Virus record (IMG/VR): IMGVR_UViG_3300032157_000040
Coordinates: 1-27,331 of that record
Length of the DNA stretch: 27,331 nucleotides
Reading direction: 5' to 3' (one strand)
Source of the DNA: a virus
The notes beneath the pieces are model-generated. The model made no database searches. It was not told the origin of the DNA and worked only from the letters and a program-made list of their open reading frames with translations. Below, piece after piece: positions 3,288 through 23,186 of the stretch. How positions within the stretch are numbered: position 1 is the first letter of the stretch; each line of letters starts with the position of its first letter. The translations under genes were made by a program, and so were the position numbers.

Positions 3288-3884
3288 TCACTTATAAAGC
3301 TGTCTTTCGTTATTAAATTTATTAATATAATTTTGATTGAATTTACCTTTACGATAATCTCCATATCCTACATTATAGGCTATAATCGTAGCGTCTTTAT
3401 CTTTTAATCCTTTATGATATTGAGATAGAATGTCGACCGATTTCTCTATTTGATGTTCGAGATCTGTTCTTAGTCTTTTAGCATCAAGTTTATGAACATT
3501 TGGTCGAATTTGAGTCAATCCAACCGCAGGATCTTTCTTTAGATCTGAAACAGCTTCCGGTCTAAAACTACTTTCTATTCCAACAATAGTTAAAATATCT
3601 TCGGCTCTAGGAAAAACAGGTTTCTCATGTTTTTTAGCAAGCTTGGCAATTTGTAAAGCTAATTCAGGATTTATTTTATATTTAGATAGAATTTTATCTG
3701 CTAAATCCTGTGCATTATGTCGAACTGGTGCCGGATTAACTTTTTGCTGAACAGGTCTATCAAAATTAGGAATTTTAGGATTAAAATTTCCTAATGCTGC
3801 CAATCCAAGAATTCCGCCGGCGGCGGCTTTCTTGAAATTTATTTCGTCCAGTTGTTTTTCGGTTAAAACTTCATATAATTTCAT
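3288..3884 (-). CDS. Lytic transglycosylase (SLT fold) with capsid-targeting-like N-terminus
   Basis: Predicted to cleave peptidoglycan glycan strands. The SLT-type lysozyme motifs are clear: the catalytic Glu in VGIESSFRP (E104), GLTQI (122-126) and AYNVG near residue 170. Residues 1-9 (MKLYEVLTE) resemble the T4 capsid-targeting peptide MKTYQEFIAE and end in L-x-E, the T4 prohead-protease cleavage pattern. A short Ala/Gly/Leu-rich hydrophobic stretch follows (about 20-33). It starts just after the stop of the 290-aa gene, behind a TAGGG ribosome site, so it should share that gene's late promoter. No holin-like neighbour is visible, so a virion-associated entry enzyme is more likely than an endolysin; this is inference. 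Confidence 0.85.
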   Translation of the reverse strand: MKLYEVLTEKQLDEINFKKAAAGGILGLAALGNFNPKIPNFDRPVQQKVNPAPVRHNAQDLADKILSKYKINPELALQIAKLAKKHEKPVFPRAEDILTIVGIESSFRPEAVSDLKKDPAVGLTQIRPNVHKLDAKRLRTDLEHQIEKSVDILSQYHKGLKDKDATIIAYNVGYGDYRKGKFNQNYINKFNNERQLYK

Positions 3885-3885
3885 A

Positions 3886-4758
3886 TTAAGCCCTAACTAT
3901 TAATTTTTTCAATATGCCTGGATTAAGAACTTCTTGACTTGGAAAATATTTAAACTTCAACCACATGAAATTAGCCGCGAATGACCAAGATTGTGTTCCG
4001 GTATAACAGAAGAATTCAACATCTTTTGATAATGTTGAAGGATAGATTTTGAACCAGCGGTGATGGTCTACGTAAGGATCAGGTGACTCTTCAAGACTTC
4101 CCCAAATTTCTAATCTACCAGTTGCATCACAAGTGTATGTAGAAAATGAATGAACTGAATCAATGTGATTTAAAACTCTTGCACCAGGTATTCTCCTGGT
4201 ATAAAAGCATGGAGCAGGTGGCGTAGATGTAGATATAATAATATCCGGTGTCCAATCTTCTGGAAGAATTGTAACACTTGGAGGTGGTGATTTAAGTGCT
4301 TGTTCCGTAATTTCAATTTCCATTGCAACGTTATCATTATAATCACTATATAATGGTTTTTCAACATAATAATCCGGTGCATTAGAAACAAAGGACTTTG
4401 TTTGAATTAAAACAAATTCATATAATCCTGCATGAATAAGTGCAAGATCTCCGGAATCTAATTCTAATGTAATAATACCTTTTGCTGGTCCAAGTCGGCA
4501 AATTTTCTCTAATGAAATAGTTCTATTTTCAGGATCGATAATTCTTGCATAAACTTGGCTATCGCAAGAAATATCTGTCGGAACTCTGTCTGGACCTAAT
4601 ACTCTAAAAATTAATTTCTGGTCAAGCCCCTTATGTGCTTTTAATGGAACGTTATTATTCATTGGTCCGTTATCCTTGCATGAGCAGAAGGTATCACCGA
4701 CAGCGAGTAATCCCCATACGTGATCGTATAAATATGTCTTGTGAAATGTGACGTCCAT
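3886..4758 (-). CDS. Probable virion/baseplate-associated protein (290 aa)
   Basis: A mostly beta-strand protein. Residues 45-120 (LDQKLIFRVLGPDRVP onward, ending in an ALIHAGLYEFVLIQT-like strand) resemble the Ig-like N-terminal domain of baseplate upper proteins, which attach receptor-binding parts. The C-terminal half (190-290) has many aromatic residues and ends in a WLKFKYFPS segment followed by a short basic tail. It has no signal peptide or membrane segment. It carries its own GATAAATA late promoter and a GGTAGGG ribosome site, which supports a structural role. A long antisense or shifted frame inside it (4170-4391) is not a gene. The specific function is not identifiable from sequence alone. 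Confidence 0.7.
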   Translation of the reverse strand: MDVTFHKTYLYDHVWGLLAVGDTFCSCKDNGPMNNNVPLKAHKGLDQKLIFRVLGPDRVPTDISCDSQVYARIIDPENRTISLEKICRLGPAKGIITLELDSGDLALIHAGLYEFVLIQTKSFVSNAPDYYVEKPLYSDYNDNVAMEIEITEQALKSPPPSVTILPEDWTPDIIISTSTPPAPCFYTRRIPGARVLNHIDSVHSFSTYTCDATGRLEIWGSLEESPDPYVDHHRWFKIYPSTLSKDVEFFCYTGTQSWSFAANFMWLKFKYFPSQEVLNPGILKKLIVRA

Positions 4759-4776
4759 TTATCCCTACCTTTTCTA

Positions 4777-4784
4777 TATTTATC
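4777..4784 (-). promoter_or_regulatory. T4-type late promoter octamer (GATAAATA)
   Basis: Minus-strand GATAAATA in the 59-base gap after the kinase-like gene. The predicted start near 4771 gives a 13-base leader containing GGTAGGG before the ATG at 4758. It should drive the 290-aa virion-like gene and the transglycosylase. Confidence 0.65.
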
Positions 4785-4817
4785 AAAAATTAGTCGCATC
4801 TCTTGCCTGCTTTTTCT

Positions 4818-5420
4818 TTAGCTAGCCCATGGATCAGTAACAACAAGAGTGTCTCCACGCTTCATTACGTTGCTGCTATTCCAGTCTTCCCCACTGTATC
4901 CAATTATAAAATCCAGTTCTGGCCAATGTTCTTCGAGATAATCTGAATTTTCGTCCGAATCAAGATAATCGAATAAGGAATAGCCCCTCTTTGGTTCTAT
5001 ACTGGGGGCTATATACTTCTTAAGTATAGGATCATTCTCTCCGTCAAGCTCTTGTAGTAGTTCCATTCTAATAGCATGACTGTTTTTCCCAATGTTTATG
5101 GGCCTTCCTCGAACCTTTGGCACGTGAGGATTGTTTTGATTTTTACGTATAACTTTTAGAAACTTTTCGTATCCCCGATCATCGACGAATACCTTATAGA
5201 CATAGGGATAGTTAGGATGTTGGAAAATATTAGCAAAATAGCCATCAGTGTTTATCTTCTTCCATCCATGCTGTTCTGCTGTTTTAATGAAATTATTCAT
5301 CGAATCAGTCTCGTACTTATAATCACTAATTTGATTGGTTTCAATCTCCTTGGGTTTCAATTGCGAGGCTGCTCTGTTAAGTGGGTGTGATTTGTATCCA
5401 GTAAGTTCGTTTAGTCGCAT
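4818..5420 (-). CDS. Minimal protein-kinase-like protein A
   Basis: A 200-aa protein whose layout matches a protein-kinase fold. It has a glycine/aromatic loop near GYFANIF (60-66), a candidate ATP-binding Lys in VYKVF (K76) and a hinge-like MELLQEL (119-125). The catalytic-loop-like GEDWNSSNVM has D179 and N184 at the canonical D-x4-N spacing. VVTDPWAS then places the putative metal-binding Asp at D196. The protein stops three residues after that Asp-Pro, so it has no activation loop or C-lobe. The N-terminus MRLNELTG recalls the start of kinase-like protein B. The late-type element directly abuts the ATG, with no Shine-Dalgarno, so the message may be leaderless. Activity and substrate are unknown. 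Confidence 0.75.
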   Translation of the reverse strand: MRLNELTGYKSHPLNRAASQLKPKEIETNQISDYKYETDSMNNFIKTAEQHGWKKINTDGYFANIFQHPNYPYVYKVFVDDRGYEKFLKVIRKNQNNPHVPKVRGRPINIGKNSHAIRMELLQELDGENDPILKKYIAPSIEPKRGYSLFDYLDSDENSDYLEEHWPELDFIIGYSGEDWNSSNVMKRGDTLVVTDPWAS

Positions 5421-5424
5421 TCTA

Positions 5425-5432
5425 TATTTATC
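5425..5432 (-). promoter_or_regulatory. Late promoter octamer abutting kinase A start
   Basis: Minus-strand GATAAATA followed by only 4 bases and then the ATG at 5420. A T4-like start about 6 bases after the octamer would fall within or next to the start codon. It is back-to-back with the plus-strand TATAAATA at 5473-5480. Confidence 0.6.
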
Positions 5433-5472
5433 ACAAAGGGACCCGAAAAAAGTTTCATTCCTTAATCAAACA

Positions 5473-5480
5473 TATAAATA
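5473..5480 (+). promoter_or_regulatory. Perfect T4 late promoter octamer (TATAAATA) for the plus-strand pair
   Basis: An exact TATAAATA lies 6 bases upstream of the ATG at 5487, so the predicted +1 falls at or next to the A of ATG. It is the only promoter-like signal for the two plus-strand genes, and there is no Shine-Dalgarno. Confidence 0.65.
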
Positions 5481-5486
5481 AGTATT

Positions 5487-5858
5487 ATGATAAATCTCGA
5501 AGAAATCAGGGAGAAATTCCCCTTTTTAACCGGTATACGCTTTCAAACGCATGAATATATTGGAATTATACAAAATTCTGACGATAAGATTATCAGCTTT
5601 TATGATTATGAATGTATCCGTACACCTGAAGAAAAAGTAGTTTTTCTCGAGAATGGAGATACCTGGTGGTGGGAAAGCAATAGGTTGCTACCTATTAATA
5701 TCTTTTTACAAGGACAAATGCAACAATTTCGTTATTGCATGAAAACAATTGTAAACAAAGATGTAGAGATTATGTTCGGTTCCTGTACAAGTCTAAACAA
5801 CATTATGAAGAAACGAATTAAGAAACGTCAAATTCAATTAATCAGAAAAGTGCCTTAA
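5487..5858 (+). CDS. Conserved-looking hypothetical phage protein (123 aa)
   Basis: One of only two plus-strand genes. It begins MINLEEIREKFPFL, has a central acidic/aromatic segment with DTWWWESNR (about 58-66) and PINIFLQG, and ends in a strongly basic helix (KKRIKKRQIQLIRK) typical of nucleic-acid or membrane contact. No ribosome site is visible; the late octamer 6 bases upstream implies a leaderless start. I recall similar proteins in T4-type phages, without a known role. Its first residues (NLEEI) are the same as those of the next gene. Function unknown. Confidence 0.75.
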   Translation: MINLEEIREKFPFLTGIRFQTHEYIGIIQNSDDKIISFYDYECIRTPEEKVVFLENGDTWWWESNRLLPINIFLQGQMQQFRYCMKTIVNKDVEIMFGSCTSLNNIMKKRIKKRQIQLIRKVP

Positions 5859-5863
5859 TCTTT

Positions 5864-6427
5864 ATGAACTTAGAAGAAATAATTTCCGGGGAGTTAGGTA
5901 ATCCAAACATACCTATATTTTCAAATCCAAAACATGAGTGCGATCAGGACGGGTATGCCATTATGTCTGATATATGGAATGGATATTATGTATTAGGCAT
6001 TTTGGATAACAATATCCCATTATCTTATGTTATTTTAGAACCAGAACAAAACGGTCTAAATAAATTAAGAGAAATTTATACAGATCCAAAACACCGCGGA
6101 AATAATTTAGCAGCCATCTTACTATTATGCCTAAAAGGTAAATTAGGAGTTAGAATATTATTAGATAAAGATGAAGTTGTGAGTGAAAATGCTCGAGGTC
6201 TAATCCTTAAGATGGTAAAAGGAAATAGATTACACGCATCATTACCCGATGGTAAAAAACTTTCTCCAATAGAATTAGAAAATATATTTAATAATGTATC
6301 TCCCAGTAATATCTCAATCATTATCGAAGGGCATAATTTCTCTGATATCGAACCAAAATATAGAAAAGATCTTATATTATCAGAAAGATTTCATTTAAGA
6401 TACAGTAATAAAGAATTATTTGATTAA
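5864..6427 (+). CDS. GNAT-like acetyltransferase (putative)
   Basis: A 187-aa protein with a GNAT-type core. After two strands (YYVLGILDNNIPLSYVIL, about 43-60), motif A reads LREIYTDPKHRGNNLAAILL (68-87). The H-R-G-N-N-L-A part stands where the Q/R-x-x-G-x-G/A acetyl-CoA pyrophosphate loop is expected. It begins MNLEEIISGEL, echoing the neighbouring 123-aa protein. No Shine-Dalgarno precedes the ATG, which lies 5 bases after the previous stop, so translation is probably coupled. The substrate is unknown. Transcription from the upstream late octamer would make it a late gene, unusual for a host-modifying enzyme unless it is packaged or modifies virions. It ends 8 bases from the convergent DnaE-like gene. 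Confidence 0.65.
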   Translation: MNLEEIISGELGNPNIPIFSNPKHECDQDGYAIMSDIWNGYYVLGILDNNIPLSYVILEPEQNGLNKLREIYTDPKHRGNNLAAILLLCLKGKLGVRILLDKDEVVSENARGLILKMVKGNRLHASLPDGKKLSPIELENIFNNVSPSNISIIIEGHNFSDIEPKYRKDLILSERFHLRYSNKELFD

Positions 6428-6435
6428 AACATATG

Positions 6436-7023
6436 CTATTCTTTCGAAAATTTCTCAATTAGCAGATTTAAATTTACCACGATAGCGAGAGCATAGGCTA
6501 TTGCATGACATCGGCGGAATTGATATTCGTCTCCTTTCTTTACCCAAACTTCTTTTCTAATATTATCCCAACTTTGATGCTGTAGATATGCTTTTCCTGG
6601 ACGCATAATTGCAAGGACCATAGCCAAGTCTTCGATTGATTGAGGTTTATATTTTACTAATAAATTGCTGTGTCCCTTTAAATGAAATAATTGATCAGTA
6701 ATTTCCGAATATTGAAAAAAATCCCAAGGTGGTTCTTTTTCTAATAATTCAAGTAAATGCTTTTCAGATTTAACACCTTCATACATATTAACATTCAAAA
6801 AATCAATTTTGAAATATCCATAGTCTCTTGCTTTCTTATAATCCAATGTTGCCATATTGGTTACAGGATCACGAGGAATGTTTTGAAAATATACACCTGT
6901 ATTATGCTTTTCATAACTGCCATCGTCATCACGATCAATCCGTCCTTGGATACATCCAATACCTTTTAAGATATCTTCTCTACCAAATACGTCCATGTCA
7001 ACATCTGTTTCAATTCTTTTCAT
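6436..7023 (-). CDS. Miniature DnaE-like (C-family DNA polymerase) palm protein
   Basis: A 195-aa protein that reads like a condensed bacterial DnaE/PolC palm. The N-terminal ETDVDMDVFGREDIL (5-19) matches the P-D-x-D-x-D-F motif that carries two catalytic aspartates. YFKIDFLNV (about 71-79) matches the motif with the third aspartate. FFQYSEITDQLF, then the stretch around KPQSIEDLAMVLAIMRPGK, matches the FQ-x-ES and L-x-RPGP region. FRRCHAIAYALAIV matches the F-x-KSH-x-x-AYA segment. All PHP, fingers and C-terminal OB-fold parts are absent, compared with more than 1,000 residues in real DnaE. It is the last gene of the gp32 operon, overlapping the preceding gene by 14 bases. Activity is unproven; it could be a replisome accessory factor. 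Confidence 0.7.
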   Translation of the reverse strand: MKRIETDVDMDVFGREDILKGIGCIQGRIDRDDDGSYEKHNTGVYFQNIPRDPVTNMATLDYKKARDYGYFKIDFLNVNMYEGVKSEKHLLELLEKEPPWDFFQYSEITDQLFHLKGHSNLLVKYKPQSIEDLAMVLAIMRPGKAYLQHQSWDNIRKEVWVKKGDEYQFRRCHAIAYALAIVVNLNLLIEKFSKE

Positions 7024-7246
7024 TTTTATATATTATTAATGGTATATACGGACAATAAAAATATCCTACAGCCTCAATTACATAGGGTTCAAATTTTAAT
7101 TTAAATGCTGTTGCATCTTCCTCATTATCAAAGGTTAACATATTTGTTCCCCATTTAAAGGAGATTACATCTAATAAATTATTATCTACAAGCCATTCGC
7201 TAATAATTTCTAATTTATTATGTGGTACTTTAAATGAAATTTCCAT
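7010..7246 (-). CDS. Small hypothetical protein (78 aa)
   Basis: A 78-aa protein with alternating strand and helix segments. It begins MEISFKVPHNKLEIISEW and continues through MLTFDNEEDATAFKLKFE to a hydrophobic, tyrosine-rich end, suggesting a ferredoxin-like alpha/beta fold. It starts at TAATG overlapping the zinc-finger gene's stop and runs 14 bases into the DnaE-like gene, so it is translationally coupled on both sides. Family not recognised; it might be a partner of the DnaE-like protein. Confidence 0.7.
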   Translation of the reverse strand: MEISFKVPHNKLEIISEWLVDNNLLDVISFKWGTNMLTFDNEEDATAFKLKFEPYVIEAVGYFYCPYIPLIIYKNEKN

Positions 7247-7926
7247 TATAATCCGGCTTGCTCTAATAAATTCTTAATATATTCGACATCATCAGTTTCT
7301 TTCTTGAACTTACGCATCCAAAATCCCGGATCAATCACATTCTTAATCATTGGATCATGATCTTCTGTAAATCTACCCTGAAGATCTTCTGCTGATTTAG
7401 ATAGATATAATACCCATGGACTAATTCTACCAGTCTTTATAAGGTATGCTGCTTCATTTGCAGAGATATTAATAAAGAATTGATTAAATGTTACGTTATT
7501 CTTTTCACACCATTCAATAATTACTGATATTGTTCTATCAGTTGCACTAACTGGTGGTTCTGTTTTTACTAAATTTTCAATATACAATTCATAGACTGAA
7601 TCAATTTTCCATTTTTCAATCTTTAATCCACTCTTAATAACAAAATCAATATATTGTTCTAAATGGACTGGCCTTAATAAACCTACATGATTGCCAAAAT
7701 TTACAAATTCAGTATAATATTGACTATCTATAAATTCATCTTGTGTTTTTATTTTCTTTGAATTAGTATGATATGCAAAATATTTCTGAAATGTTCTAAA
7801 GCCATAACGAAATCCTTCAGTATTAATATCAAGATAGCGTTGCTTCTTAAGACATATATGAGTGGCTAGTGTGGTTTCCTTATGGAACTTTTTTCCGCAA
7901 TATTTACAATCGAATTTTTGTTCCAT
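7246..7926 (-). CDS. Zinc-finger protein of the replication operon (226 aa)
   Basis: The N-terminus carries a C2H2/C2HC-type finger: CKYC at residues 7-10, then H23 and C25 after a KKFHKETTLATH linker. A mostly helical domain follows, with FGNHVG, WKIDSVYELYIENL and GRISPWVLY segments. The longest frame opens at a TTG at 7944, but I prefer the ATG at 7926, which places the finger directly at the N-terminus. Comparable proteins occur, to my memory, in many T4-type phages beside replication genes, annotated only as zinc-finger proteins. It probably binds nucleic acid or a replisome subunit; this is inference from the finger and the neighbours. Confidence 0.75.
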   Translation of the reverse strand: MEQKFDCKYCGKKFHKETTLATHICLKKQRYLDINTEGFRYGFRTFQKYFAYHTNSKKIKTQDEFIDSQYYTEFVNFGNHVGLLRPVHLEQYIDFVIKSGLKIEKWKIDSVYELYIENLVKTEPPVSATDRTISVIIEWCEKNNVTFNQFFINISANEAAYLIKTGRISPWVLYLSKSAEDLQGRFTEDHDPMIKNVIDPGFWMRKFKKETDDVEYIKNLLEQAGL

Positions 7927-7946
7927 TTTTTTCTGTACCAACAAGA

Positions 7947-8480
7947 TTATTTTCCTTTTAACAAACCCTCTATTTCTTTATCGCTAAATCCATTATCAAC
8001 TAAGAAGTCTTCAAGATCTTCGACAGTATTAATCTTTTGAAATAATTCTAATTCATCATCATTTAAATTAGGAAAATATTGTAAAACTATTTCTTCAACT
8101 CTATTCTTCTTAATACCTTTTGGTGGCGCAATCCATTCATGTTTGTCTGGCCTACCAGTGCCAGTCATCGCGAGTAACATCCATTGTAATTCTTTATGTT
8201 TATTTAAAAACTTAGAACGTGAATTCATAACTGTATTTACATTCCAAATCTGGGTTCCTGGATCACGTGAAGTTGAACTCATCCATCTCGTCAATGGCCA
8301 AATAGCAATATCTTTTTTCTGTTCATCATTCAATTTACTATAAAATTTCTTGTTACGCCGATCAAGCGCAGGAATAACAACACCGAACAGATCGTTTTTG
8401 TATTCTTTACCTTTCTTTTCCTCTTCAACTTTTATTGCATCCGGATTAAGTTGAAAGAATTCTTCTACCCAATTACTCAA
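7947..8480 (-). CDS. Probable clamp-loader subunit (gp62-like)
   Basis: A helical protein with segments DLFGVVIPALDRRNKKFYSKL and IWPLTRWMSSTSR (the latter about residues 61-73 in this numbering). It continues with KELQWMLLAMTGTGR and a C-terminal acidic helix-turn region. This pattern (FxVxxAIxxKDxxFYxKL, a W-x-x-x-RWMS core, a C-terminal helical bundle) resembles proteins annotated as the small, non-ATPase clamp-loader subunit of T4-type phages. The resemblance is from memory. No ATG is available early. The longest frame starts at a TTG at 8498; a GGAG correctly spaced before the TTG at 8480 favours that start, which overlaps the previous gene by 8 bases. No gp44-type ATPase is present in this window. 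Confidence 0.55.
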   Translation of the reverse strand: MSNWVEEFFQLNPDAIKVEEEKKGKEYKNDLFGVVIPALDRRNKKFYSKLNDEQKKDIAIWPLTRWMSSTSRDPGTQIWNVNTVMNSRSKFLNKHKELQWMLLAMTGTGRPDKHEWIAPPKGIKKNRVEEIVLQYFPNLNDDELELFQKINTVEDLEDFLVDNGFSDKEIEGLLKGK

Positions 8481-8976: not shown

Positions 8977-8986
8977 TATTTCCCTT

Positions 8987-9760
8987 TTATGCTTTATCCA
9001 TTAAATCAAGTCTCACAATATCATCTTCAGATAATATTGAACCGATTTGTGTTTCGACGAAAACGAGATCCGTATCGCCAGTATTTGTAATCTTGTGAAG
9101 TGTTGCAACATCAATCGCATAGATCGATCCTTTCTTGCAACTAAATCCATAATTATCAATTGCTACAATTCCTGTACCAGAGATAATATACCAACCTTCA
9201 CTTCTATGATTGTGATATTGGAGGCTTATAGCCTGTTTCGGTTTAATTGTAACTTCTTTTACAAGATAACCTTCGCCTCTATGTAAAATCTTGTAAAATC
9301 CCCAATTCTTGTTTGTTATGTCATTTTTCCAATTATCAAAATACCAAGAACTTGAATATCTTTTATCTGTTCCGCCAATACCAAATCTTAAAATAACGTC
9401 GCATTCCTTTGCTACTTTTTCTTCAGGTATATTTTCAATGGTTCTATCACCACCATTCATAAAGTATATTGTGCTTTTCGGATAAAAAGCTCTAGTTTGG
9501 CGTATTGCTTCATTAGCTGTATCATCAGCATCATCTTTAGGTGAAAGGGCATGAACTTGTGAAATATATTTTATACCTCTCAGTATTTCCGTTCTATCGT
9601 ATTGTGGCATAAAAGCCTTACCTTTTTTACGAATTAGCCATTCATCAGAATTCACAAAAACAATTACATCATCCACCCATCTGGAGGATTCTCTGAAATA
9701 TTTAATATGACCGGGTGTTATAGGATCAAATCCACCTGTTAAAATTGCAATTCGATGCAT
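8987..9760 (-). CDS. Nucleotidyltransferase-cupin fusion protein
   Basis: A two-domain protein. Residues 1-145 form a cytidylyltransferase-type Rossmann domain, with GGFDPITPGH (9-18, the T/H-x-G-H nucleotide-binding motif in its T form) and an SSSWYF segment corresponding to the family's I-S-x-x-x-I motif. Residues 165-257 form a cupin like that of type II mannose-phosphate isomerase/ManC: LQYHNHRSEGWYIISGTG, then IYAIDVATLHKITNTGD, ending SEDDIVRLD. The expected roles are activation of a sugar or polyol phosphate with a nucleotide, plus a sugar-isomerase/epimerase-like step. The target could be a glycan or modified DNA; the sequence does not say. The start overlaps the previous stop (TAATG). 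Confidence 0.85.
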   Translation of the reverse strand: MHRIAILTGGFDPITPGHIKYFRESSRWVDDVIVFVNSDEWLIRKKGKAFMPQYDRTEILRGIKYISQVHALSPKDDADDTANEAIRQTRAFYPKSTIYFMNGGDRTIENIPEEKVAKECDVILRFGIGGTDKRYSSSWYFDNWKNDITNKNWGFYKILHRGEGYLVKEVTIKPKQAISLQYHNHRSEGWYIISGTGIVAIDNYGFSCKKGSIYAIDVATLHKITNTGDTDLVFVETQIGSILSEDDIVRLDLMDKA

Positions 9761-10140
9761 TATGATTCACCATAAAATTCTTGTATTTTTCCTGATTTTA
9801 CTATTTTCTCGAGAACTGCTACAAAATCTTCATTCTGTTTAGCTTCTTTTTCTTCTTGTAATTGTCTATGGTATGATTTTGGTTGAAGAGCATCTAGTGC
9901 AACTCCACATTTTAGAAGATAATCATCTAACATATTAAGAACACCACAATGCCTTACACCCATAAATGTTAGTGCTATGGAGGTAGGTTCATATGTTGTT
10001 TCTAAATGAATAACCATATGGTGCCTTCCCCTAACTTCCATTGTGGCTTGTTTTATATTCACACCCACTAGTTCATTTGCCTTAAAGAAAATCTTGATTA
10101 ATTCAAGATGTGCTATATCTAATCTTGTCTCAATTATCAT
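9760..10140 (-). CDS. Small hypothetical protein downstream of uvsW (126 aa)
   Basis: A 126-aa alpha/beta protein: an N-terminal helix-strand region, MVIHLETTY (about 42-50), GVRHCGVLNMLDDYLLKCGV (61-80), then a charged coiled-coil-like C-terminus. Its start lies inside the last codons of uvsW (about 11 bases overlap) and its stop overlaps the next start (TAATG). No family is recognised. The tight coupling to uvsW suggests a helicase-associated or repair role only by context. Confidence 0.75.
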   Translation of the reverse strand: MIIETRLDIAHLELIKIFFKANELVGVNIKQATMEVRGRHHMVIHLETTYEPTSIALTFMGVRHCGVLNMLDDYLLKCGVALDALQPKSYHRQLQEEKEAKQNEDFVAVLEKIVKSGKIQEFYGES

Positions 10141-15489: not shown

Positions 15490-17550
15490 TCAAAAGAAAT
15501 TCATCGTATATTTGTCAAAGAAAGCTGTTAGGCCAACAGATTCTTTAATTTCTTTCTTCACCTCGGTAGCTTTTTCTTCTACCTTGATATTTTCAAAAAC
15601 TTGTGTAAGGACAGCACGTTCAAAATCGTTTACGGTGCCTTCCTTACAAATTTTATTTCCAATCTTATTAATAAATCCTGCAAGCTCATCATTTTCCATG
15701 ATACGCAAAGCAAATTCGTTAATTTTGAATCCTAAACGAGCATTTTCACTCGCAAATTCAAACATCGGAGTAGTATTTATCGATTCACGGCGAACCTTGA
15801 CAACATTTGCGGCCGATTCCTCGATCCTTTTGTGATAGGTATCCTTTTCTTGAACAAGTTGTTTAATGATAGGAAGTACACCTTCAAACTTTTCATCGAA
15901 ACGACGAATAGTGAAAAGTTCCTTGAGCTGGCTTGTATCATCCTCGGCAAGGGCTTCACGTTCAAAAGTTTCTAAACGAGCCTTAACTGTTTCATAGGTT
16001 TTTACACCAGTCAACTTTTTAAGTTCAGTACGAATCGTTTCAATATTTTCTTTTACCGTTTCAACAATGCCGGAACTATCTTCATTAATTAATTTATTAG
16101 TTGTAACATAACGATTAAAAGATTGAAGTTTTAAAAGATTTCCAGTAGTTTCTGTAATATATTCACCTACCTTGTCACTAAATGTTCCACTATGTGCCAT
16201 ATGTTGAGCCATTGCCCTTGCACCAGGTAGATAGTTATGTGGAAAACGAAAACGTTCACCATTACATTCTAAGAAAATTGCACTAATGTGGCGGGATCTC
16301 GATCCACGCACATTCTCATCAATAGGTGTCTTATGTCTTACCAAAATACGAACATTTTCTAATGTTTGCTGTGATGTCCTTAATGAACCAAACATCTTAC
16401 TAAAACTTTCATTTACAGGAATATCTTTAAAATCAATATCAGTAGCTCTAGATGTATTAAATTTCTTTCCGGATGCAGATGGTGGTGTTATAGGTGGCTT
16501 CTTTCCGGAGATCTCTGTATCTGATCCATCAATAGAATTATTTTTCCTTGCAGCAGGAGATCCCGGCTTATTAACTTGATTTCCAGTCATTGCTGAAATT
16601 TGATCCGGGTGATATCGTCCAAGAGTATTAATTTTCTTTAATTCGTGTCCACGTTGATAATTGCGTTCCCAACGGGCATCATTTTTATCACTGTCCCTTT
16701 CACGTTCTATACGTATTCTTTTCAAAGTTTCAGATTCTTCGTAAATAGCTTCATCTACTGCCATAGAATATATCATATAATCCTTATACGGGTGTGCAAC
16801 CACCTTACCTTGTTGAACAAGTTTATTTAAAATAGGTTGAACCTCATCCGGCTCTTCACCTAAATTGTTACAAATATCATGAAATGCTGCACCATTTGGT
16901 TGATGATGTTGATGATTTTTACTTGTGAAGGCTTTAATCATTCTAATAACTTCACCCACTAAGTGGTGATTATGTGGACTTGTTGCGTTTTCCATCATTG
17001 CTCCATTTGCAAGAGAATATAATACCTGGCCATCCTGAAATCCCGGCTCAGCTATTATTTTTCTTTCTTTAACTAACCTTATCAATACTGGCTTGATTTC
17101 TCTCACATCTATTCCAAATATTTGTGCCATTGTGTCAGCTTCGGTTCCTGGAGAGGTTCTTAATCTTTCTAAAACTCTATGAATCAAATCAGCCTGAGTG
17201 TTCTCCATCATTGCAGCACCCTTCATTTTCGCTTGATATGCATAATCTTTTGGTTGAATTGATTTTCCAAAGATTTTAATTTGCGAATTCATCATGAATT
17301 GATCAGAAAGTTTACGAATGCCTTTTTGTATTCCTTCGACAGAATCATCAACATTTTTACCTTTACTAAATTCAACCTTTTTAGCATCTTCATCAACCGT
17401 AACCATAATATTAGGATTAACAACGAAAAATCGACGGGCGGCTGTTGGATCTGTTGTTTCATTACCTGCATCATCAAAAATCTTCACCTTGAGGCCATGC
17501 CCCTTTAAGAGAGAAAATATTTTTTCAGAAAGACTCGATACTTCAACCAT
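15490..17550 (-). CDS. Large virion-like protein with two winged-helix-like repeats (686 aa)
   Basis: The N-terminal part (1-105) resembles proteins in related phages. Two tandem winged-helix-like units follow, about 118-182 and 195-266, each introduced by a G-A-(x)-M-M-E-N segment (111-117 and 183-188), consistent with an internal duplication. A Pro/Ser/Lys-rich linker covers about 300-375. A conserved-looking core follows with RHKTPIDENVRGSRSRHI and RFPHNYLPGARAMAQHMA (about 415-470). The C-terminal 200 residues are helical. It has its own GATAAATA promoter and AAGGA ribosome site. The family is, to my memory, an unassigned structural or internal protein in T4-type phages; the winged helices suggest DNA contact. 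No enzyme motif seen. Confidence 0.8.
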   Translation of the reverse strand: MVEVSSLSEKIFSLLKGHGLKVKIFDDAGNETTDPTAARRFFVVNPNIMVTVDEDAKKVEFSKGKNVDDSVEGIQKGIRKLSDQFMMNSQIKIFGKSIQPKDYAYQAKMKGAAMMENTQADLIHRVLERLRTSPGTEADTMAQIFGIDVREIKPVLIRLVKERKIIAEPGFQDGQVLYSLANGAMMENATSPHNHHLVGEVIRMIKAFTSKNHQHHQPNGAAFHDICNNLGEEPDEVQPILNKLVQQGKVVAHPYKDYMIYSMAVDEAIYEESETLKRIRIERERDSDKNDARWERNYQRGHELKKINTLGRYHPDQISAMTGNQVNKPGSPAARKNNSIDGSDTEISGKKPPITPPSASGKKFNTSRATDIDFKDIPVNESFSKMFGSLRTSQQTLENVRILVRHKTPIDENVRGSRSRHISAIFLECNGERFRFPHNYLPGARAMAQHMAHSGTFSDKVGEYITETTGNLLKLQSFNRYVTTNKLINEDSSGIVETVKENIETIRTELKKLTGVKTYETVKARLETFEREALAEDDTSQLKELFTIRRFDEKFEGVLPIIKQLVQEKDTYHKRIEESAANVVKVRRESINTTPMFEFASENARLGFKINEFALRIMENDELAGFINKIGNKICKEGTVNDFERAVLTQVFENIKVEEKATEVKKEIKESVGLTAFFDKYTMNFF
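15774..15781 (-). promoter_or_regulatory. Internal late-promoter-like octamer
   Basis: An exact GATAAATA inside the 686-aa gene, followed 8 bases later by an in-frame ATG. It could give late transcription of gp32 or of a C-terminal fragment of about 91 aa, but one such 8-mer is expected by chance in a window this AT-rich. Confidence 0.2.
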
Positions 17551-17570
17551 GATAAAATCCTTATTATGCT

Positions 17571-17578
17571 TATTTATC
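17571..17578 (-). promoter_or_regulatory. T4-type late promoter octamer (GATAAATA)
   Basis: In the 37-base gap after the large terminase gene. Predicted +1 near 17565 leaves a short leader with AAGGA before the ATG at 17550. Drives the 686-aa protein. Confidence 0.65.
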
Positions 17579-17587
17579 TATAAATGA

Positions 17588-19165
17588 TTAAATCATTATC
17601 GGCATCGGCATATCATAACTTGTATCAGTGTTATCCGAAACATTACTATTAATTGCTGCCTGTGACTTATCATCCCACGTAGAAATAAAGTCAGTCATTC
17701 TAACCGCGAGTATCATCGCCATTATCAAATCGTCTGTTTGTCCAATTCGTGCTTCAAATGTATTGGCACGAGAAACAAAGACTTTCAATTCAGATAACAA
17801 ACCTTTAGAATTAATTTTCATTCTACCTGATTCAATTAAGAATTTCAATTTAGCACAAGATTCCAATTTAGATTTATTTGTTGTGTTGAATCCTGCTCGT
17901 CTTGCTCTTCCAGATCCGGTTAATTTATTTTTCGGATCATGCAACATTGTTCCATAAAAATTTTCTTCACCAGTATCTCTAATAACAACAAGAGCTGCTT
18001 CACCTAAAGTATTATTTTCTACAGACCAATAAGTTTCTGGTTTGCCTGATAGATAAAGTTCTTCAAGAATCTTTTTCATTGTACGAACTTGTTCTTCAAT
18101 CGGAGCCTTGTTATTACTCCATTCCCCAACTTGAACTAAGGACGGTAATTCGAGAATTTGAATTGCTGCATTATCACCACCTGTACCCATTGATGGGTCA
18201 AGTGAAACAACATATGTAAGTTCAGAACGAATATCGGAATACCAACGAACTTGCCCAGTTTTTCTAATTGGATTTTTTGGTTCAAGTTGTGCAAGCTTAA
18301 CTGGATTAATAAGAGTTTCTTCAAATGTAATGAATTGACAATTGTGTTCACGAAGGAATCTATCTTCACCTAATGCGGCTAATTCTTCATCTGCCCATAA
18401 TTGATCACGTTCTGGGTGACGATCCCATGTTGCCATATAAGGTCGGAATCCATTTACACCAATTTCAGTTTCATTCCCATTGGAATCAACCATTTTATTC
18501 GCACCCCACCAAATATCAGCAAATTGATCTTCATCTGTATTTGGTGTTGAAGTAATAATACATTTACCACCTGTGGATAAGGTTGGTGATAGAGAAGTCC
18601 AGAATTCTTTTGCAATATTTGGTTCTACGAATGCAAATTCGTCTAAATAAACTAATGATAATGCCATACCACGACCTGTATTTTCAGTTGTGGTAGTTGC
18701 AATAATGCGTGATCCATTATCAAAGTCTATGGAACGTTTATTATAGGTTTTGGCACCTGCACGAATGTGATCTGGAACAGATTCATATGCATATCGAACT
18801 CTGTGCATAATTTCTTGTGCGCCATCATATTTGTTGGAGGCAATAAGAATTGTAGAATCCGTGTTGAACATCGCATACCAAAGAAGATATCCTGCCGCTA
18901 CGGTAGTCTTTCCCATTTGGCGACTAACCATATTAATGGAGCGACGTGAAAAATGATAATTGTTAATTAAATCATATTGAAAATCAAATAATTGTAATTT
19001 CAACCTACCCTTTGTAGTATGTTGAATATACATATAATTTTCAAGAAAATATTTAGGACCTGTCTTAGGATCCATGCATAATCTCAGTTCATCATATTGT
19101 TCTTTGGTATATGTTACTTTTTTATATGCAGGTTTAACATGTTCTTCGTCTTGATATATTGCCAT
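17588..19165 (-). CDS. 17: Large terminase subunit gp17 (ATPase-nuclease)
   Basis: DNA-packaging motor that translocates phage DNA into the prohead and cuts concatemers. The ATPase half shows Walker A SRQMGKTT (81-88) and Walker B LVYLDEFAF (171-179). The RNase H-type nuclease half shows the first catalytic Asp in VVSLDPSMGTGGD (D323) and the C-terminal acidic residues in GQTDDLIMA. Length 525 aa, shorter than T4 gp17 (610). The ATG follows the stop of the frameshifted upstream frame by 2 bases, with GAGAGGG upstream. Confidence 0.96.
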   Translation of the reverse strand: MAIYQDEEHVKPAYKKVTYTKEQYDELRLCMDPKTGPKYFLENYMYIQHTTKGRLKLQLFDFQYDLINNYHFSRRSINMVSRQMGKTTVAAGYLLWYAMFNTDSTILIASNKYDGAQEIMHRVRYAYESVPDHIRAGAKTYNKRSIDFDNGSRIIATTTTENTGRGMALSLVYLDEFAFVEPNIAKEFWTSLSPTLSTGGKCIITSTPNTDEDQFADIWWGANKMVDSNGNETEIGVNGFRPYMATWDRHPERDQLWADEELAALGEDRFLREHNCQFITFEETLINPVKLAQLEPKNPIRKTGQVRWYSDIRSELTYVVSLDPSMGTGGDNAAIQILELPSLVQVGEWSNNKAPIEEQVRTMKKILEELYLSGKPETYWSVENNTLGEAALVVIRDTGEENFYGTMLHDPKNKLTGSGRARRAGFNTTNKSKLESCAKLKFLIESGRMKINSKGLLSELKVFVSRANTFEARIGQTDDLIMAMILAVRMTDFISTWDDKSQAAINSNVSDNTDTSYDMPMPIMI

Positions 19166-19167
19166 AA

Positions 19168-19676
19168 TTAGTAATCCCTCTCCGGTTCATCATAATAATC
19201 ATCTTTGGAGGGTGGTTCAATCTTTTCTGCTTCATCTTGGAACGCTTTTTGTAAAAGATTAGAAATAGTTATAGGATTAAGAAGTTGTTTTTGAACCGAA
19301 TATGGTAAATTTTCTTGAAGGGTTTCTAATGAAACTACTTCATTATCTAAATAACAATCTGAATCAGGATCAGGAGATGCAGAATGAATTGAAACATCAC
19401 TTATTGCTGCATAGGTTGATGTGGTATAGGTCGGACTGTCTGTTCTATGATTCCACCCTGTCGGCTGTTCATCGGTTTCCCAATCAAAATCTGCACTTGC
19501 AGATACATTTAACGAAAGACCAATTTGATGTGGTCGATTATCATTACCGATAGCAGTCGCTGATAAAGTTAGAATACCTTCATAAGAAATAGTATCATCA
19601 GAAGAATCAAAGTCTCCTTCATAATCTGTTAGAGATACATCGGAGACTACGGCGGATTCAGTTAACTTTTTTTTTT
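19168..19676 (-). CDS. C-terminal extension of the 372-aa protein, reached by -1 frameshift
   Basis: An open frame from 19683 to the TAA at 19168-19170 with no ATG, GTG or TTG start near its beginning. It would encode about 166 residues beginning KLTESAVVSDVSLTDYEGDF. The middle is a beta-rich domain (ISYEGILTLSATAIGNDNR, then IGLSLNVSASADFDW) and the end is a helical, acidic tail. The upstream 372-aa frame ends on a run of ten A (19667-19676) reading AAA AAA AAA AGT TAA; slipping back one base there continues as AAG TTA ACT into this frame. Together they would make about 536 aa. Programmed slippage, transcriptional slippage or a homopolymer sequencing error are all possible. Similar beta domains occur, from memory, in other phage proteins. 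Confidence 0.65.
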
Positions 19677-20780
19677 GGTTTTTTTAAATTTTTTGGCGCC
19701 GCGACGGCTATCTTTTTTATCTTTCGGCGGTAATGGTTGTGGATTCAGCATCCTATCACTGGCGGCTTCCTCTAAGAATGATCTATAACCGTAAACCAAT
19801 TCTTTGTGAACTTCTTCAAGTTCTGTTTTCATTTTTTTCTGTTCTGGGTTATCTCCATGACGAGCACCAGAAGGTCCTACGGCCTTCACAACTGGACCGT
19901 CAGCACCATTTGGAAAATAATCATTTCCAGATGCAACATGGACATCATGATAACCATTTTGAAGATCTTCTTCTAATTCATCTTCTACGGATTCTTCTTC
20001 AGATTCAACAGTTTCTTCTTCAAGACCCATTTCACCTTGTCTCATACTCCAATCTGTGTAATCATCGTCAAATTCATCACTATATTGAGCTTTAATGGCA
20101 TCAGAAATCTCATCTATTTCCGAAGCATCTAAACCCTCTTCATCGAAATTACGCAAAACAAGATCGAGTGCTTCCTGTGGTTCAACAAAACTATCAGTAT
20201 AGTTTCGATACATCTCAAGGCCTCTGGTAACATTTTCATTACCAGCTGTTGGGTCTAAACCTTGTGCAGCACTTCCCATTTCACCCTGGTTCATAGCCCA
20301 ATCTGTATAATCACCGGATTCTTCAAATCCTGCATCATAAAGATTTTCTTCCATCTTGCAGGCTTCACGAGCATTCTTAGGATTAGATTGACGGCAGGAA
20401 TCAACGTGTGCTTCTTCTACATGTTTCATAGCACTGCTTAATTGTTTTGTGCCTTTATCAGCTTGATTGAATTCTTTTGATACCTTATCGGACGGGCATG
20501 AATCATAATCAGCACCATGAGCACAAGCAGCCATGAAACGTGCTTGCTTTTCTGAACTTGATTTTTCTTCTAAGTTTTGTGCAGATTTTTTCAAATTTTC
20601 ACGATCACTAAGTTTACCTTCTTTTTCCTGATCTTGAACATCTTTAGGAGTAAGTGGTTTCTCACCTTTCTCTTTCCTAAGATAGGCAGGAACTTCGTGG
20701 CGTCTAGGTCCATCTTCATTGAGGCCTGGAATAGCCATTACACCTTCCATAAGGGTCATCATTTCTCTCATACTTTTCAT
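19662..20780 (-). CDS. Candidate internal head protein, acidic, with short repeats (372 aa or longer)
   Basis: The N-terminus MKSMREMMTLME has the shape and L-x-E end of a T4-type capsid-targeting peptide. Residues near 75-115 (KQARFMAACAHGADYDSC... SKEFNQADKG) match a small motif common in phage proteins. Two copies of D-Y-T-D-W-(A/S)-M-x-Q-G-E-M-G occur, encoded near 20275-20315 and 20026-20064. A long Glu-rich stretch follows, then a Lys-rich end (RRGAKKFKKTKKKS). It overlaps the preceding gene by ATGA. The annotated stop is probably bypassed by -1 frameshift on the A10 run (see the extension). A core/scaffold or packaged protein is the likely role; no enzyme motif is seen. Confidence 0.8.
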   Translation of the reverse strand: MKSMREMMTLMEGVMAIPGLNEDGPRRHEVPAYLRKEKGEKPLTPKDVQDQEKEGKLSDRENLKKSAQNLEEKSSSEKQARFMAACAHGADYDSCPSDKVSKEFNQADKGTKQLSSAMKHVEEAHVDSCRQSNPKNAREACKMEENLYDAGFEESGDYTDWAMNQGEMGSAAQGLDPTAGNENVTRGLEMYRNYTDSFVEPQEALDLVLRNFDEEGLDASEIDEISDAIKAQYSDEFDDDYTDWSMRQGEMGLEEETVESEEESVEDELEEDLQNGYHDVHVASGNDYFPNGADGPVVKAVGPSGARHGDNPEQKKMKTELEEVHKELVYGYRSFLEEAASDRMLNPQPLPPKDKKDSRRGAKKFKKTKKKS

Positions 20781-21451
20781 AGCATACCTACCTTTAACAG
20801 GTTAGGCTTCTTGATTCTGCCAAATAGCCCAACATCATCTTTGTTTAAATTCTTTGGATCATTAAATCCATCATAGCCCTTCGGCAGTGTGGAATGATCG
20901 GTTTTAGCAGCCGGACTTAGTGGGTTTTCGACAGTAACTATTTCACGTTCCTTGCGGACTTTTTCAAGCTCCTTCAAGAAACTTACATTGTACTTCTCTC
21001 CATAAAGTGCCTCGTCTGGATTTTCGTCAGCCATATAATCACTACCGAGTCTAGTCTTATATTTCTTTTTGTATTCTTCGGAATGTCTATCAATATATAA
21101 ATCTGTTTCAATCTGTCTTGGATCATTTTCAGAATAAACTGCAAGACATGCTGGAGAAATTCCAACACAATTACAAACGTATATTCTTAGAAAATCTAGT
21201 GAACCCGGATATCCAAGTGTTATATCACAAATAAATACTGGTGTAAATTTTACATTAGGAAAATCTAATGGACTTTCTTGGATAGGTGTTTTTCTAAATG
21301 AAGATGCTGATTTAAGATCATATTTGGCTAAACCTGCTTCAAGCTGATCAATCATAACATCTGTCATTTCATTCACGGCAAATTTTAAGACATATTTGTA
21401 TTCTGTCTTATTTTCTGCAACGTAGTTAATAAATGATTTCTTTTCTGCCAT
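20777..21451 (-). CDS. Conserved-looking T4-type phage protein, candidate packaged protein (224 aa)
   Basis: The N-terminus MAEKKSFINYVAE resembles a capsid-targeting peptide with cleavage after V-A-E. The following domain reads YKYVLKFAVNEMTDVMIDQL, RKTPIQESPLDFPNVKF (53-69) and a FICDITLGYPGSLDFLRIYV strand-helix region (73-92). This gives a ferredoxin-like pattern I recall from unassigned proteins of other T4-type phages. The C-terminus is charged and ends RIKKPNLLKVGML. A GATAAATA late promoter and GGAG precede it; the promoter overlaps the end of the small terminase gene. Late expression fits a head protein. Confidence 0.75.
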   Translation of the reverse strand: MAEKKSFINYVAENKTEYKYVLKFAVNEMTDVMIDQLEAGLAKYDLKSASSFRKTPIQESPLDFPNVKFTPVFICDITLGYPGSLDFLRIYVCNCVGISPACLAVYSENDPRQIETDLYIDRHSEEYKKKYKTRLGSDYMADENPDEALYGEKYNVSFLKELEKVRKEREIVTVENPLSPAAKTDHSTLPKGYDGFNDPKNLNKDDVGLFGRIKKPNLLKVGML

Positions 21452-21469
21452 AGTAACTCCATGTTAAGA

Positions 21470-21973
21470 CTATTTATCAGAATTTTCAGTTTTACTGGAA
21501 ACAATATACTTGATGAGTTCGTTCCTATCGAATTCTCCACCATTAGAATATTTCTTGTCACCATTTCCTTGTTCAAAATCAATCTGTTCTGCACGAACTT
21601 TCTTTAACTGAAGTTCTATCATTTTAAGTTTTCTATCAGCCTTAGCATTATTAGCCTCTAATGCAATCTTAAGACTTGAAACTCCAACTTCATAAATCTT
21701 ACCAGCATGGAGATCTGGAACATTGCCACCAAGTACAATAAGATCTTCGAATGTTTTGATTGCTTTCTTAGCAATATCATCCATTTCAGCATCGTGTTTA
21801 TTTAAATCAGTTACGGTAGGTAATGCTAAATTAACCTGTTCGGCCGTAGTCAATGCATTAGAAACTTCTGCAACTTCTGCAAATAATTCTTCTTTAGACT
21901 TTTGAGGCAATTCTTCTACCACCGGCTCTTCTATAGGAGGTAGGTTAAAAAAATCTTCAAGTTTCTTCGTCAT
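21470..21973 (-). CDS. 16: Small terminase subunit gp16-like
   Basis: Recognises phage DNA and regulates the gp17 motor. The 167-aa protein begins MTKKLEDFFNLPPIEEP, with an acidic Pro/Glu N-terminal tail. A helical hairpin follows: DDIAKKAIKTFEDLI, then AGKIYEVGVSSLKIALEANN and AKADRKLKMIELQLKKVR. The pattern E-V-x-x-x-x-L-K, A-N-x-A-K, K-L-K-M-I-x-L-Q-L-K is typical of T4-type small terminases. Length and position near gp17 agree with T4 gp16. The start overlaps the end of the 48-aa upstream ORF by 17 bases. Confidence 0.8.
   Translation of the reverse strand: MTKKLEDFFNLPPIEEPVVEELPQKSKEELFAEVAEVSNALTTAEQVNLALPTVTDLNKHDAEMDDIAKKAIKTFEDLIVLGGNVPDLHAGKIYEVGVSSLKIALEANNAKADRKLKMIELQLKKVRAEQIDFEQGNGDKKYSNGGEFDRNELIKYIVSSKTENSDK
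21471..21478 (-). promoter_or_regulatory. T4-type late promoter octamer (GATAAATA)
   Basis: Overlaps the last codons and TAG stop of the small terminase gene. Predicted +1 near 21465 leaves a short leader with GGAG before the ATG at 21451. Should transcribe the two internal-head candidates and the large terminase. Confidence 0.65.
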
Positions 21974-22103
21974 GTCTTTCCACTATACCTTTGAGTATTT
22001 TATTCATTTCTTTAAGACATTCAAGTTGTCCTTCTAATTTTTCTTCATATGATAATTCTATATTTTCTTCTATCTTCTTTTGTTCTTTTTCATTATCGGA
22101 CAT
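21957..22103 (-). CDS. Short acidic coiled-coil ORF between gp4 and gp16 (48 aa)
   Basis: An ATG at 22103 opens a 48-aa frame: MSDNEKEQKKIEENIELSYE, then EKLEGQLECLKEMNKILKGI and a short acidic end. It is highly charged and helical. AAGGGAAGGG sits about 10 bases before the ATG. The same region can form an AACCC/GGGTT hairpin around that ribosome site, at the end of gp4, which could couple its translation to gp4. It fills an otherwise empty gap and ends inside the small terminase start. No family recognised. Confidence 0.6.
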   Translation of the reverse strand: MSDNEKEQKKIEENIELSYEEKLEGQLECLKEMNKILKGIVERHDEET

Positions 22104-22107
22104 AATA

Positions 22108-22548
22108 TTAACCCTTCCCTTTTGGGTTATTGAAAATATTATTCTCAGTCATTACTCTAAATCCCATGCCACGATTTTTTGCAAACTCTTGTGCCGCCTG
22201 CCATTTGAACGTATTCAATGCGACCGCTGCCTTAGCCTTTTGACTTTTTGCCTGTTCTAGGAATGTCTCTTTGGCTGGCTTTACTTCAATAATCTCTGCT
22301 ATTTGATTACCTTTAGCATCCACATAAGTAACAACAAAATCCGGGACATACACAGTGTATTTACCGGTGAATGGATTTGTGTAGGGTATCTTAATGGATT
22401 CACTTGCCCAGGTTTTTATATTTGGATTATTATCAAATAACAACATTACCTTATGTTCCCAAGATGACCTGAAAACAATAGGATATGTACCAACATACTT
22501 TTCCGGGTGTTCCGGAGTATATTTTCCTTGAAAATATGATCTAGACAT
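22108..22548 (-). CDS. 4: Head-completion nuclease gp4-like
   Basis: In T4 this protein trims or seals packaged DNA at the head vertex before tail joining. The N-terminus MSRSYFQGKYTPEHPEKYVG and the RSSWEHKVM segment are very close to T4 gp4 in pattern. The PD-(D/E)xK-type nuclease residues are E31 in SSWEHK, D70 in YVPDF, and E88/K90 in IIEVKP. The length of 146 aa matches T4 gp4 (about 150). It is coupled to the kinase-like gene by TAATG. The C-terminus is NNPKGKG. Confidence 0.93.
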   Translation of the reverse strand: MSRSYFQGKYTPEHPEKYVGTYPIVFRSSWEHKVMLLFDNNPNIKTWASESIKIPYTNPFTGKYTVYVPDFVVTYVDAKGNQIAEIIEVKPAKETFLEQAKSQKAKAAVALNTFKWQAAQEFAKNRGMGFRVMTENNIFNNPKGKG

Positions 22549-23186
22549 TATGCTATTGGGTCTGATAATACCAATTGAGGTATGCCTCCTACTTTCCGAA
22601 ACATAATATTATCTTCTTTACCAGCTATATCAAGGCCAAATCCTACAGATCTTTTTTGAGCACTATGAATTATCTTTAATGCTTGAGCAAATTGTTTATC
22701 TTTAATGTTTCCAGGATTTTTTTCGTATGCATCAGTTATTAAAGCATCTATTGATGGATTTTTTATTTTTCCTAGCGTCTGATAATTATGAAACATATAA
22801 GATTTAAGATGTTCAATTGTTTCAGGATCAACGCTTGACATAGGATGCAAATGTTCAAGAACCGCATAATAAAAATTCATATTATTATCTTTTACGGATT
22901 TAAATTTAATAATTTTTGGAAAATAAGGATTTTTGTATCCTCTCTTTTCTAATGCCTGAATAATTTTAACAAATACAACATACGGATCATCACTGAAATC
23001 ATTTAACATAGCCTGGTGAGGAATTTTTATTACTTCACCTTCCCTTTTTGCGGCTTGTCCTTTTCGAACCATGGCATAACCACCATCACCAATATTTGAT
23101 CCTACTTTCTGTAATTTTGCTAATTTTCTTGAGCCGGGATCTAACCGTGGATCATCCTCATTTACAAATAATTCAAATAATCTCAT
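22548..23186 (-). CDS. Minimal protein-kinase-like protein B
   Basis: A 212-aa protein with a kinase N-lobe-like pattern: glycine-rich loop IGDGGYAMV (32-40), Lys in VIKIP (K54) and hinge-like AVLEHL (108-113). The catalytic segment GLDIAGKEDNIMF has D186 and N193, two residues longer than the canonical D-x4-N. QLVLSDPIA holds the metal-binding Asp candidate D209 and ends the protein, with no activation loop or C-lobe. The N-terminus MRLFELFVNE resembles a capsid-targeting peptide. It is embedded in the late virion operon and coupled on both sides (ATGA and TAATG), so it is made late, with head and tail proteins. Together with protein A it suggests a paralogous pair. Substrate unknown. Confidence 0.75.
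   Translation of the reverse strand: MRLFELFVNEDDPRLDPGSRKLAKLQKVGSNIGDGGYAMVRKGQAAKREGEVIKIPHQAMLNDFSDDPYVVFVKIIQALEKRGYKNPYFPKIIKFKSVKDNNMNFYYAVLEHLHPMSSVDPETIEHLKSYMFHNYQTLGKIKNPSIDALITDAYEKNPGNIKDKQFAQALKIIHSAQKRSVGFGLDIAGKEDNIMFRKVGGIPQLVLSDPIA

Follow-up and report, generated by a model that had tools for sequence, protein, structure and literature searches.

Genes and N-termini in the window

The sequence studied here, IMG/VR virus record IMGVR_UViG_3300032157_000040 (“the window”, meaning the whole 27,331-base fragment), comes from a jumbo T4-like phage; the fragment does not include the head module. The fragment's terminase shares 61% identity with the terminase of Pseudomonas phage PA5oct (287 kb; Arenbergviridae, Wroclawvirus), and the fragment's gene order is common to PA5oct and three environmental contigs, G001 (136 kb, terminase 88% identical to the window's), G011 (131 kb, 84%) and G006 (363 kb, 82% over most of the length). 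Homology to annotated PA5oct genes identifies tail sheath, tail tube, head closure, terminase, UvsX, helicase and primase genes in the window; a nucleotide search with the window in a phage collection gave no match. Five proteins encoded in the window are considered: a lytic transglycosylase, two kinase-like proteins (A and B), a 224-amino-acid (aa) virion structural protein and a 372-aa virion protein homologue (Table 1). The original prediction was that their N-termini resemble the peptides of about 10 residues that direct T4 internal proteins into the prohead. All five open reading frames (ORFs) and N-termini read exactly as given in that prediction, and all lie on the minus strand. Support for the prediction is unequal among the five: it is strong for the transglycosylase and kinase B, good at the family level for the 224-aa protein, and doubtful for the 372-aa protein. 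Kinase A carries a partial tag, in which the head is kept and the second Glu is missing.

Table 1. Features of the window, with head-module genes of G011. A slash marks the predicted cut after Glu; ESI-MS/MS, electrospray ionisation tandem mass spectrometry; nt, nucleotides.
Feature	Position	Strand	Basis or context
Transglycosylase tag MKLYEVLTE/K (L-T-E at 7-9; also L-Y-E at 3-5)	3858..3884	-	core-profile rank, ortholog
Lytic transglycosylase, 198 aa, SLT domain at residues 97-183	3288-3884	-	PF01464
Kinase A partial tag MRLNELTG	5397..5420	-	matches regular expression; no Glu at 9-10
Kinase-like protein A, 200 aa	4818-5420	-	PHROG 15752 protein kinase, E=3.2e-8
Kinase B tag MRLFELFVNE/D	23157..23186	-	HExxH-profile rank; L098 conservation
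Kinase-like protein B, 212 aa, accessory gene between head-closure and 157-aa structural genes	22548-23186	-	homologues RAS14, L098
224-aa protein tag MAEKKSFINYVAE	21413..21451	-	family conservation; KKSFINYVAE in T4 register
224-aa virion structural protein	20777-21451	-	PHROG 14802 head and packaging, E=2.3e-8; PA5oct gp282, ESI-MS/MS
372-aa protein N-terminus MKSMREMMTLME, doubtful tag, may be LAGI-type motif	20745..20780	-	conservation, weak profile score
372-aa virion protein homologue	19662-20780	-	homologue of PA5oct gp281, ESI-MS/MS-detected
GATAAATA	5425..5432	-	4 nt before kinase A start; late-promoter-like, spacing below usual
GATAAATA	21471..21478	-	19 nt before 224-aa start; same site 20 nt upstream in G001
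GATAAATA	4777..4784	-	upstream of 290-aa gene directly preceding transglycosylase
GATAAATA	24895..24902	-	upstream of 410-aa tail gene; kinase B two genes downstream
GATAAATA, further copies	752-759, 17571-17578, 26656-26663	-	just upstream of late/structural genes
G011 portal	46109		followed by tagged 145-aa gene MKIRDIILNE
G011 gp67-like, 71 aa, MRAVEMLTE/FYDPADD	after tagged 145-aa gene		followed by 337-aa gene in gp68 place
G011 S77 protease	49768		followed by scaffold MAKKIDEILSE/SVGLSEE, then capsid (51550)

A shared motif beyond chance

Three of the N-termini (transglycosylase, kinase A and kinase B) have M-[KR]-L-x-E-[LV] in common. Generalised to the regular expression ^M[KR][LIVFM].[ED][LIVFM], the motif is matched by 3 of the 40 called window proteins and by none of 152 internal methionines; permuting residues 2-16 gives 0.1 matches on average and never more than 2. 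The N-termini of the 224-aa and 372-aa proteins do not match it. Matches also exceed shuffled counts in PA5oct (8 vs 0.55), G001 (4 vs 0.28-0.34), G011 (4 vs 0.15-0.22) and G006 (13 vs 1.3). The shared N-termini could instead reflect translation-start context or chance, with A/T-rich early codons and K or R favoured at position 2, and two of the three window tags are alike in DNA (ATGA[AG]ATTAT[AT]TGAA). This explanation is very improbable and is largely refuted by the composition-preserving shuffles, which give roughly 10 to 30 times fewer matches. Moreover, the codons of kinase A (CGA CTA AAC GAA CTT) and kinase B (AGA TTA TTT GAA TTA) differ in part, so recent DNA copying does not account for the kinase A tag; the tag of kinase B is kept in a relative (on contig L098) at 30% identity; and motif matches coincide with ESI-MS/MS detection. 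Seven of the eight PA5oct motif proteins are marked as detected, compared with 93 of the 333 proteins examined (Fisher p=7e-4), and the eighth is a 64-aa product that adjoins two tagged, detected ones. Looser motif patterns (pattern C) had no association with ESI-MS/MS detection in PA5oct, such that the strict form alone is informative.

Additional evidence came from nine-column profiles trained on either five core tags of relatives or the tags of HExxH proteins, with window sequences excluded. Among the 40 window proteins, the core-trained profile ranks the transglycosylase first (14.1 bits, next 3.2; per-protein p=0.0005), and the HExxH-trained profile ranks kinase B first (18.3, next 1.6; 0 of 2000 shuffles as high). 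The 372-aa protein scores weakly (core profiles on its N-terminus, p=0.02-0.05) and the 224-aa protein does not stand out. Applied to the 283 proteins of T4 as a cross-lineage control, the core profile ranks gp24 (MAKINELLRE) 2nd and gp22 (MLKEQLIAE) 13th. These are the T4 head-protein sequences closest to the core tags of the clade (compare the G011 scaffold, Table 1), but they belong to capsid and scaffold proteins, not injected enzymes. An unbiased DNA scan of viral contigs for M-K-[LF]-[YF]-E-[LF]-F-x-x-E turned up 13 stretches, among them the G011 HExxH protein and a gene of contig L102. Four contigs of the scan carry a 338-aa protein of unknown family (L099:5908-6924) with the tag-like start MKLYELFEAE.

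Tagged prohead-core homologues and the protease in relatives

The original prediction called for a gp21-like prohead protease, which is present in close relatives and not within the 27-kb fragment. The gp21-family (S77) domain PF03420 is found in PA5oct gp331 (E=5e-24) and G011 (9e-26), with a homologue in G006. A search for PF03420 in the window and four relatives found none, because these are fragments or partial contigs and the window does not reach the head region. The head module of G011, G006 and PA5oct has the order portal, gp67-like, gp68-position, protease, scaffold, capsid, as does that of T4 (20-67-68-21-22-23); the names “gp67-like” and “scaffold” derive from gene order plus a weak head-scaffolding PHROG match. 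Both proteins are tagged in G011 and G006 (G011 sequences in Table 1), and their PA5oct counterparts begin MKINDIITE and MTVKFEHILNE. Mass spectrometry did not detect the PA5oct scaffold homologue, which would fit with degradation of the scaffold.

Of all tag residues, the second Glu varies least across the gp67-like, scaffold and HExxH families. Homologous protein bodies begin directly after it and the tag itself varies (E/TTEEDRALISLAD, E/TTEEERAILSLSS, E/SVNEDRAIISLAR), a pattern seen in the HExxH proteins of four genomes and in a pair of L102 proteins (MKAIEILLE/DKLEHLAKTMG and MKLFELFLIE/NKISHLVKTMG). In L102 (positions 1923-6080), from another environmental phage, this pair follows a third tagged gene (MKIREILAE), and the three lie in a row with a homologue of a neck protein on one side and the tail sheath on the other. 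Other tagged proteins include PA5oct gp279, a TRWCTA-motif protein (MKLFEVFTLYE/DK), and, in relatives, a ClpS-domain protein (MRLDEIINE/AGEV; PF02617, 3e-12), although the PA5oct ClpS protein is untagged. The tagged HExxH proteins have weak metallopeptidase matches only. One candidate member of this group, G001_118745 (MRLPELTIE), was dropped, as it matches the Asp/Arg hydroxylase family PF05118. The slots of tagged genes vary; for example, PA5oct and contigs L002 and L010 have a tagged gene behind the terminase, where the window has none.

Transglycosylase and kinase-like proteins

Capsid targeting in T4 involves hydrophobic residues at positions 4, 7 and 8 and Glu at position 10 (PMC9026906). 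The transglycosylase tag fits these positions with one residue fewer, and its L-T-E ending at residue 9 bears out the proposed fit to L-x-E. The enzyme matches PF01464 with E=9.2e-11 (41.8 bits vs a curated cut-off of 21.3). Its gene is found in the window and contig L027, where the ortholog keeps the tag (MRLQEVLTE), and not in G001. A search with the N-terminus alone against phages gave no match.

Kinase B has F4, F7, V8 and E10 in place; as had been pointed out for both kinase B and the 224-aa protein, the cut-site motif is V-x-E, not L/I-x-E. The slot between the head-closure and 157-aa genes is filled in the window and L098, and not in G001. The L098 relative in this slot is 30% identical overall and keeps M1, R2, L3, E5, L6 and E10, followed by a diverged linker. 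The RAS14 homologue keeps MKLIDLF, with the tag retained across 25-30% identity. A search of twelve large relatives did not find kinase B, indicating that it is an accessory gene. The label “kinase-like” reflects a D..NIM..DP motif and homology only: kinase B has no Pfam or PHROG match (none to PHROG 15752 at E<=0.01), and the RAS14 homologue matches PHROG 15752 at only E=0.0087. An AlphaFold2 model of kinase B is unusable, with a predicted local distance difference test score (pLDDT) of 37. For kinase A, the weaker tag that had been proposed is what is seen, since the regular expression is matched and the second Glu is missing. The N-terminus of a kinase A homologue from Rhizobium phage RHph_I1_18, MKSFSEHIAE, resembles the T4 sequence MKTYQEFIAE. 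A kinase A profile search of viral contigs found no relative.

The 224-aa and 372-aa virion proteins

Residues KKSFINYVAE of the 224-aa protein align without gaps to T4 MKTYQEFIAE. In six close relatives, K5, S6, F7, Y10, V11, A12 and E13 are invariant and residues 8-9 are variable, and the G011 ortholog has I for V (YIAE), a strict I-x-E. Distant family members begin MNRLQQILTE (121Q), MKDLNTILTE (Vibrio 2.275) and MINLQKILTD (Muenster). T4 capsid targeting sequences that have Asp as residue 10 still target their protein but are not processed (PMC9026906). In an AlphaFold2 model of the 224-aa protein (overall pLDDT 47), residues 18-107 form a tentative beta-alpha-beta-beta-alpha-beta core. 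An effector role, as the original prediction would have it, is not obvious for this protein, the family being annotated as virion structural protein.

The 372-aa protein had been ranked among the best fits to L-x-E. While it has L-M-E ending at residue 12, and is thus formally a fit, its family alignment favours LAGI-type N-termini, and the N-terminus was set aside as a doubtful capsid tag. The first 21 residues are kept in relatives and the remainder diverges. Family members start MFNINDILRLAGV (PA5oct), MNLQRIKQLAGIK (G011) and MQELKRLQELAGV (G006), and LxxLAG[IV] also occurs at scaffold C-termini (LQKILSLAGIRK, VEELRRLAGIK). For this protein, we lean towards reading the N-terminus as another short motif, LxxLAG[IV], that only resembles a capsid-targeting sequence: the starts of its relatives and the scaffold C-terminus suggest that it is probably another head motif, although MKSMREMMTLME can also be read in T4 register and the MREMINLME form is kept in close relatives. 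The loci concerned are G011 50415-51533 (in L093), L014:4724-5830 and 19662-20780 of the window; LxxLAG[IV], as seen at the scaffold C-terminus and at the N-termini of the 372-aa family in relatives, is perhaps a second head-assembly motif.

A probable late promoter upstream of tagged genes

Across the window, G001, G011 and G006, 87 genes have the word GATAAATA at most 40 nt upstream; the five words used for comparison, TATAAATA and four permutations, give 0-14 genes. The genes that GATAAATA precedes include those for the tail tube, the sheath and the 224-aa protein. It is found at this distance from 9 of 24 tagged genes and 78 of 1109 others (p=3e-5). In the window, the 224-aa and kinase A genes have copies of their own, and the transglycosylase and kinase B genes follow genes with a copy. 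Recurring as it does just upstream of late and structural genes, GATAAATA is a probable T4-like late promoter of the clade.

Comparison with known packaging systems

T7 gp16 is a transglycosylase that is carried inside the virion and serves DNA entry. T7 is not known to have such a tag or a prohead protease; packaging of the window transglycosylase, by contrast, is predicted from its tag only.

The T4 internal proteins IPI-III and Alt carry capsid targeting sequences processed by gp21 (PMC9026906, PMC3012670). The parallels include about 10 N-terminal residues with a basic residue 2, hydrophobic residues at fixed steps and L/I-x-E, non-homologous cargo, the same prohead gene order and an S77 protease (here in relatives). 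One difference is the consensus, M[KR][LI]x[ED] in the clade rather than MKTYQEFIAE, in a tag that is often one residue shorter. Another is the predicted cargo, which consists of enzymes (transglycosylase, kinase-like, HExxH, ClpS domain) where that of T4 consists of small anti-restriction proteins; processing, too, is a prediction here. Once injected, the internal proteins of T4 inhibit type IV restriction enzymes (PMC12373910), which makes an anti-defence role possible, by analogy, for some of the cargo. In phiKZ and SPN3US, the prohead protease likewise cuts after Glu and ejection proteins are packaged, but most propeptides are far longer than the tags described here (>100 residues for several; one of 20) (PMC5694885).

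Predicted packaging, processing and injection

We consider it likely that these N-termini are capsid-targeting propeptides of the T4 type, carried by virion proteins and accessory enzymes that would be packaged and probably injected. Comparison established the motif beyond chance, the tags on core and scaffold homologues, the S77 protease of relatives, the association with ESI-MS/MS detection and late promoters, and the bodies that start after Glu. To this extent the capsid-targeting prediction holds, and it falls short in the missing Glu of kinase A, the doubtful 372-aa tag and the lack of an obvious effector in the 224-aa protein. For the window's own enzymes, packaging, cleavage, injection and targets are inferred.

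Several observations weigh against this conclusion. The regular expression was widened once the N-termini of PA5oct and G001 were known, so those two counts are not blind; G011 and G006 were scanned later. The virion detection data are those of PA5oct, whose ESI-MS/MS set also includes likely cytoplasmic proteins (ribonucleotide reductase, thymidylate synthase), making detection supportive of virion location rather than strict proof of it. The core profile places T4 IPII and IPIII only at ranks 18-19 of 283 and misses IPI, suggesting that the clade motif is related to the T4 internal protein sequence but not identical. In kinase A, neither residue 9 nor residue 10 is Glu (L-N-E only at 3-5), which makes a Glu-anchored profile score impossible, and in the 224-aa family the proteins of PA5oct and Phosso have A or S in place of Glu at the predicted cut site. 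The last two points, together with D for E in Muenster, would also fit a model in which the tag is a general assembly signal of late structural proteins, such as a docking helix for scaffold, neck or tail, that is not removable and has no link to injection. The 224-aa family and PA5oct 157529-157843 are indeed annotated as virion structural proteins. We regard this model as unlikely given the constancy of the second Glu, the body homology directly behind it and the S77 protease in relatives.

Under the favoured capsid-targeting model, the tag, M-(K/R)-(L/I)-x-(E/D)-(hydrophobic)2-4-x-E, would draw a protein into the prohead core late in infection, where the core's own gp67-like and gp22-like proteins would bear the same tag. 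The gp21-family protease would then cut after the Glu of L/I/V-x-E, in most cases residue 9 or 10, leaving a mature cargo that would be retained in the head with the DNA and, most likely, injected. In the window, the predicted bearers are the 224-aa virion protein, the lytic transglycosylase, kinase B and probably kinase A. Once injected, the transglycosylase may open peptidoglycan for entry, and the kinases may modify host proteins ahead of any phage gene expression.

Other features of the window and its relatives

An in-frame insertion, possibly an intein, splits the terminase large subunit gene of G006 (G006:C1:108152-110713, L077; an 855-aa frame with a two-piece match). At 8987-9760, the window encodes a cytidylyltransferase-like domain (PF01467) fused to a mannose-6-phosphate isomerase C-terminal/cupin domain (PF01050). 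A 686-aa virion protein homologue (15490-17550) is about 190 aa longer than the 497-aa G001 version, and its residues ~118-186 have weak matches to transcription-regulator PHROGs. A 308-aa ORF between tail genes (25028-25954), with repeated LEKYGxxxP-like units, is not at the same place in G001 and looks to us like a homing-endonuclease-type insertion.

Implications

A broader proposal, which we hold only tentatively, is that PA5oct-like and related environmental jumbo phages possess a general cargo tag of 9-10 residues. Swappable enzyme genes in recurring late-gene slots would be loaded into the head for injection, the cargo being kinases, a lytic transglycosylase, HExxH metallopeptidase-like proteins, a ClpS-domain protein and a TRWCTA-motif protein, such that host phosphorylation, proteolysis and wall opening might precede phage expression. 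If true, a 10-residue tag would reveal, by sequence alone, packaged and probably injected jumbo-phage proteins, and dozens of unknown accessory genes would become testable effectors. The kinases and the transglycosylase would be predicted to act at the first moment of infection. The capsid-targeting principle of T4, so far one of internal proteins and Alt, would be widened to enzyme cargo in a group for which virion proteomics already exists.

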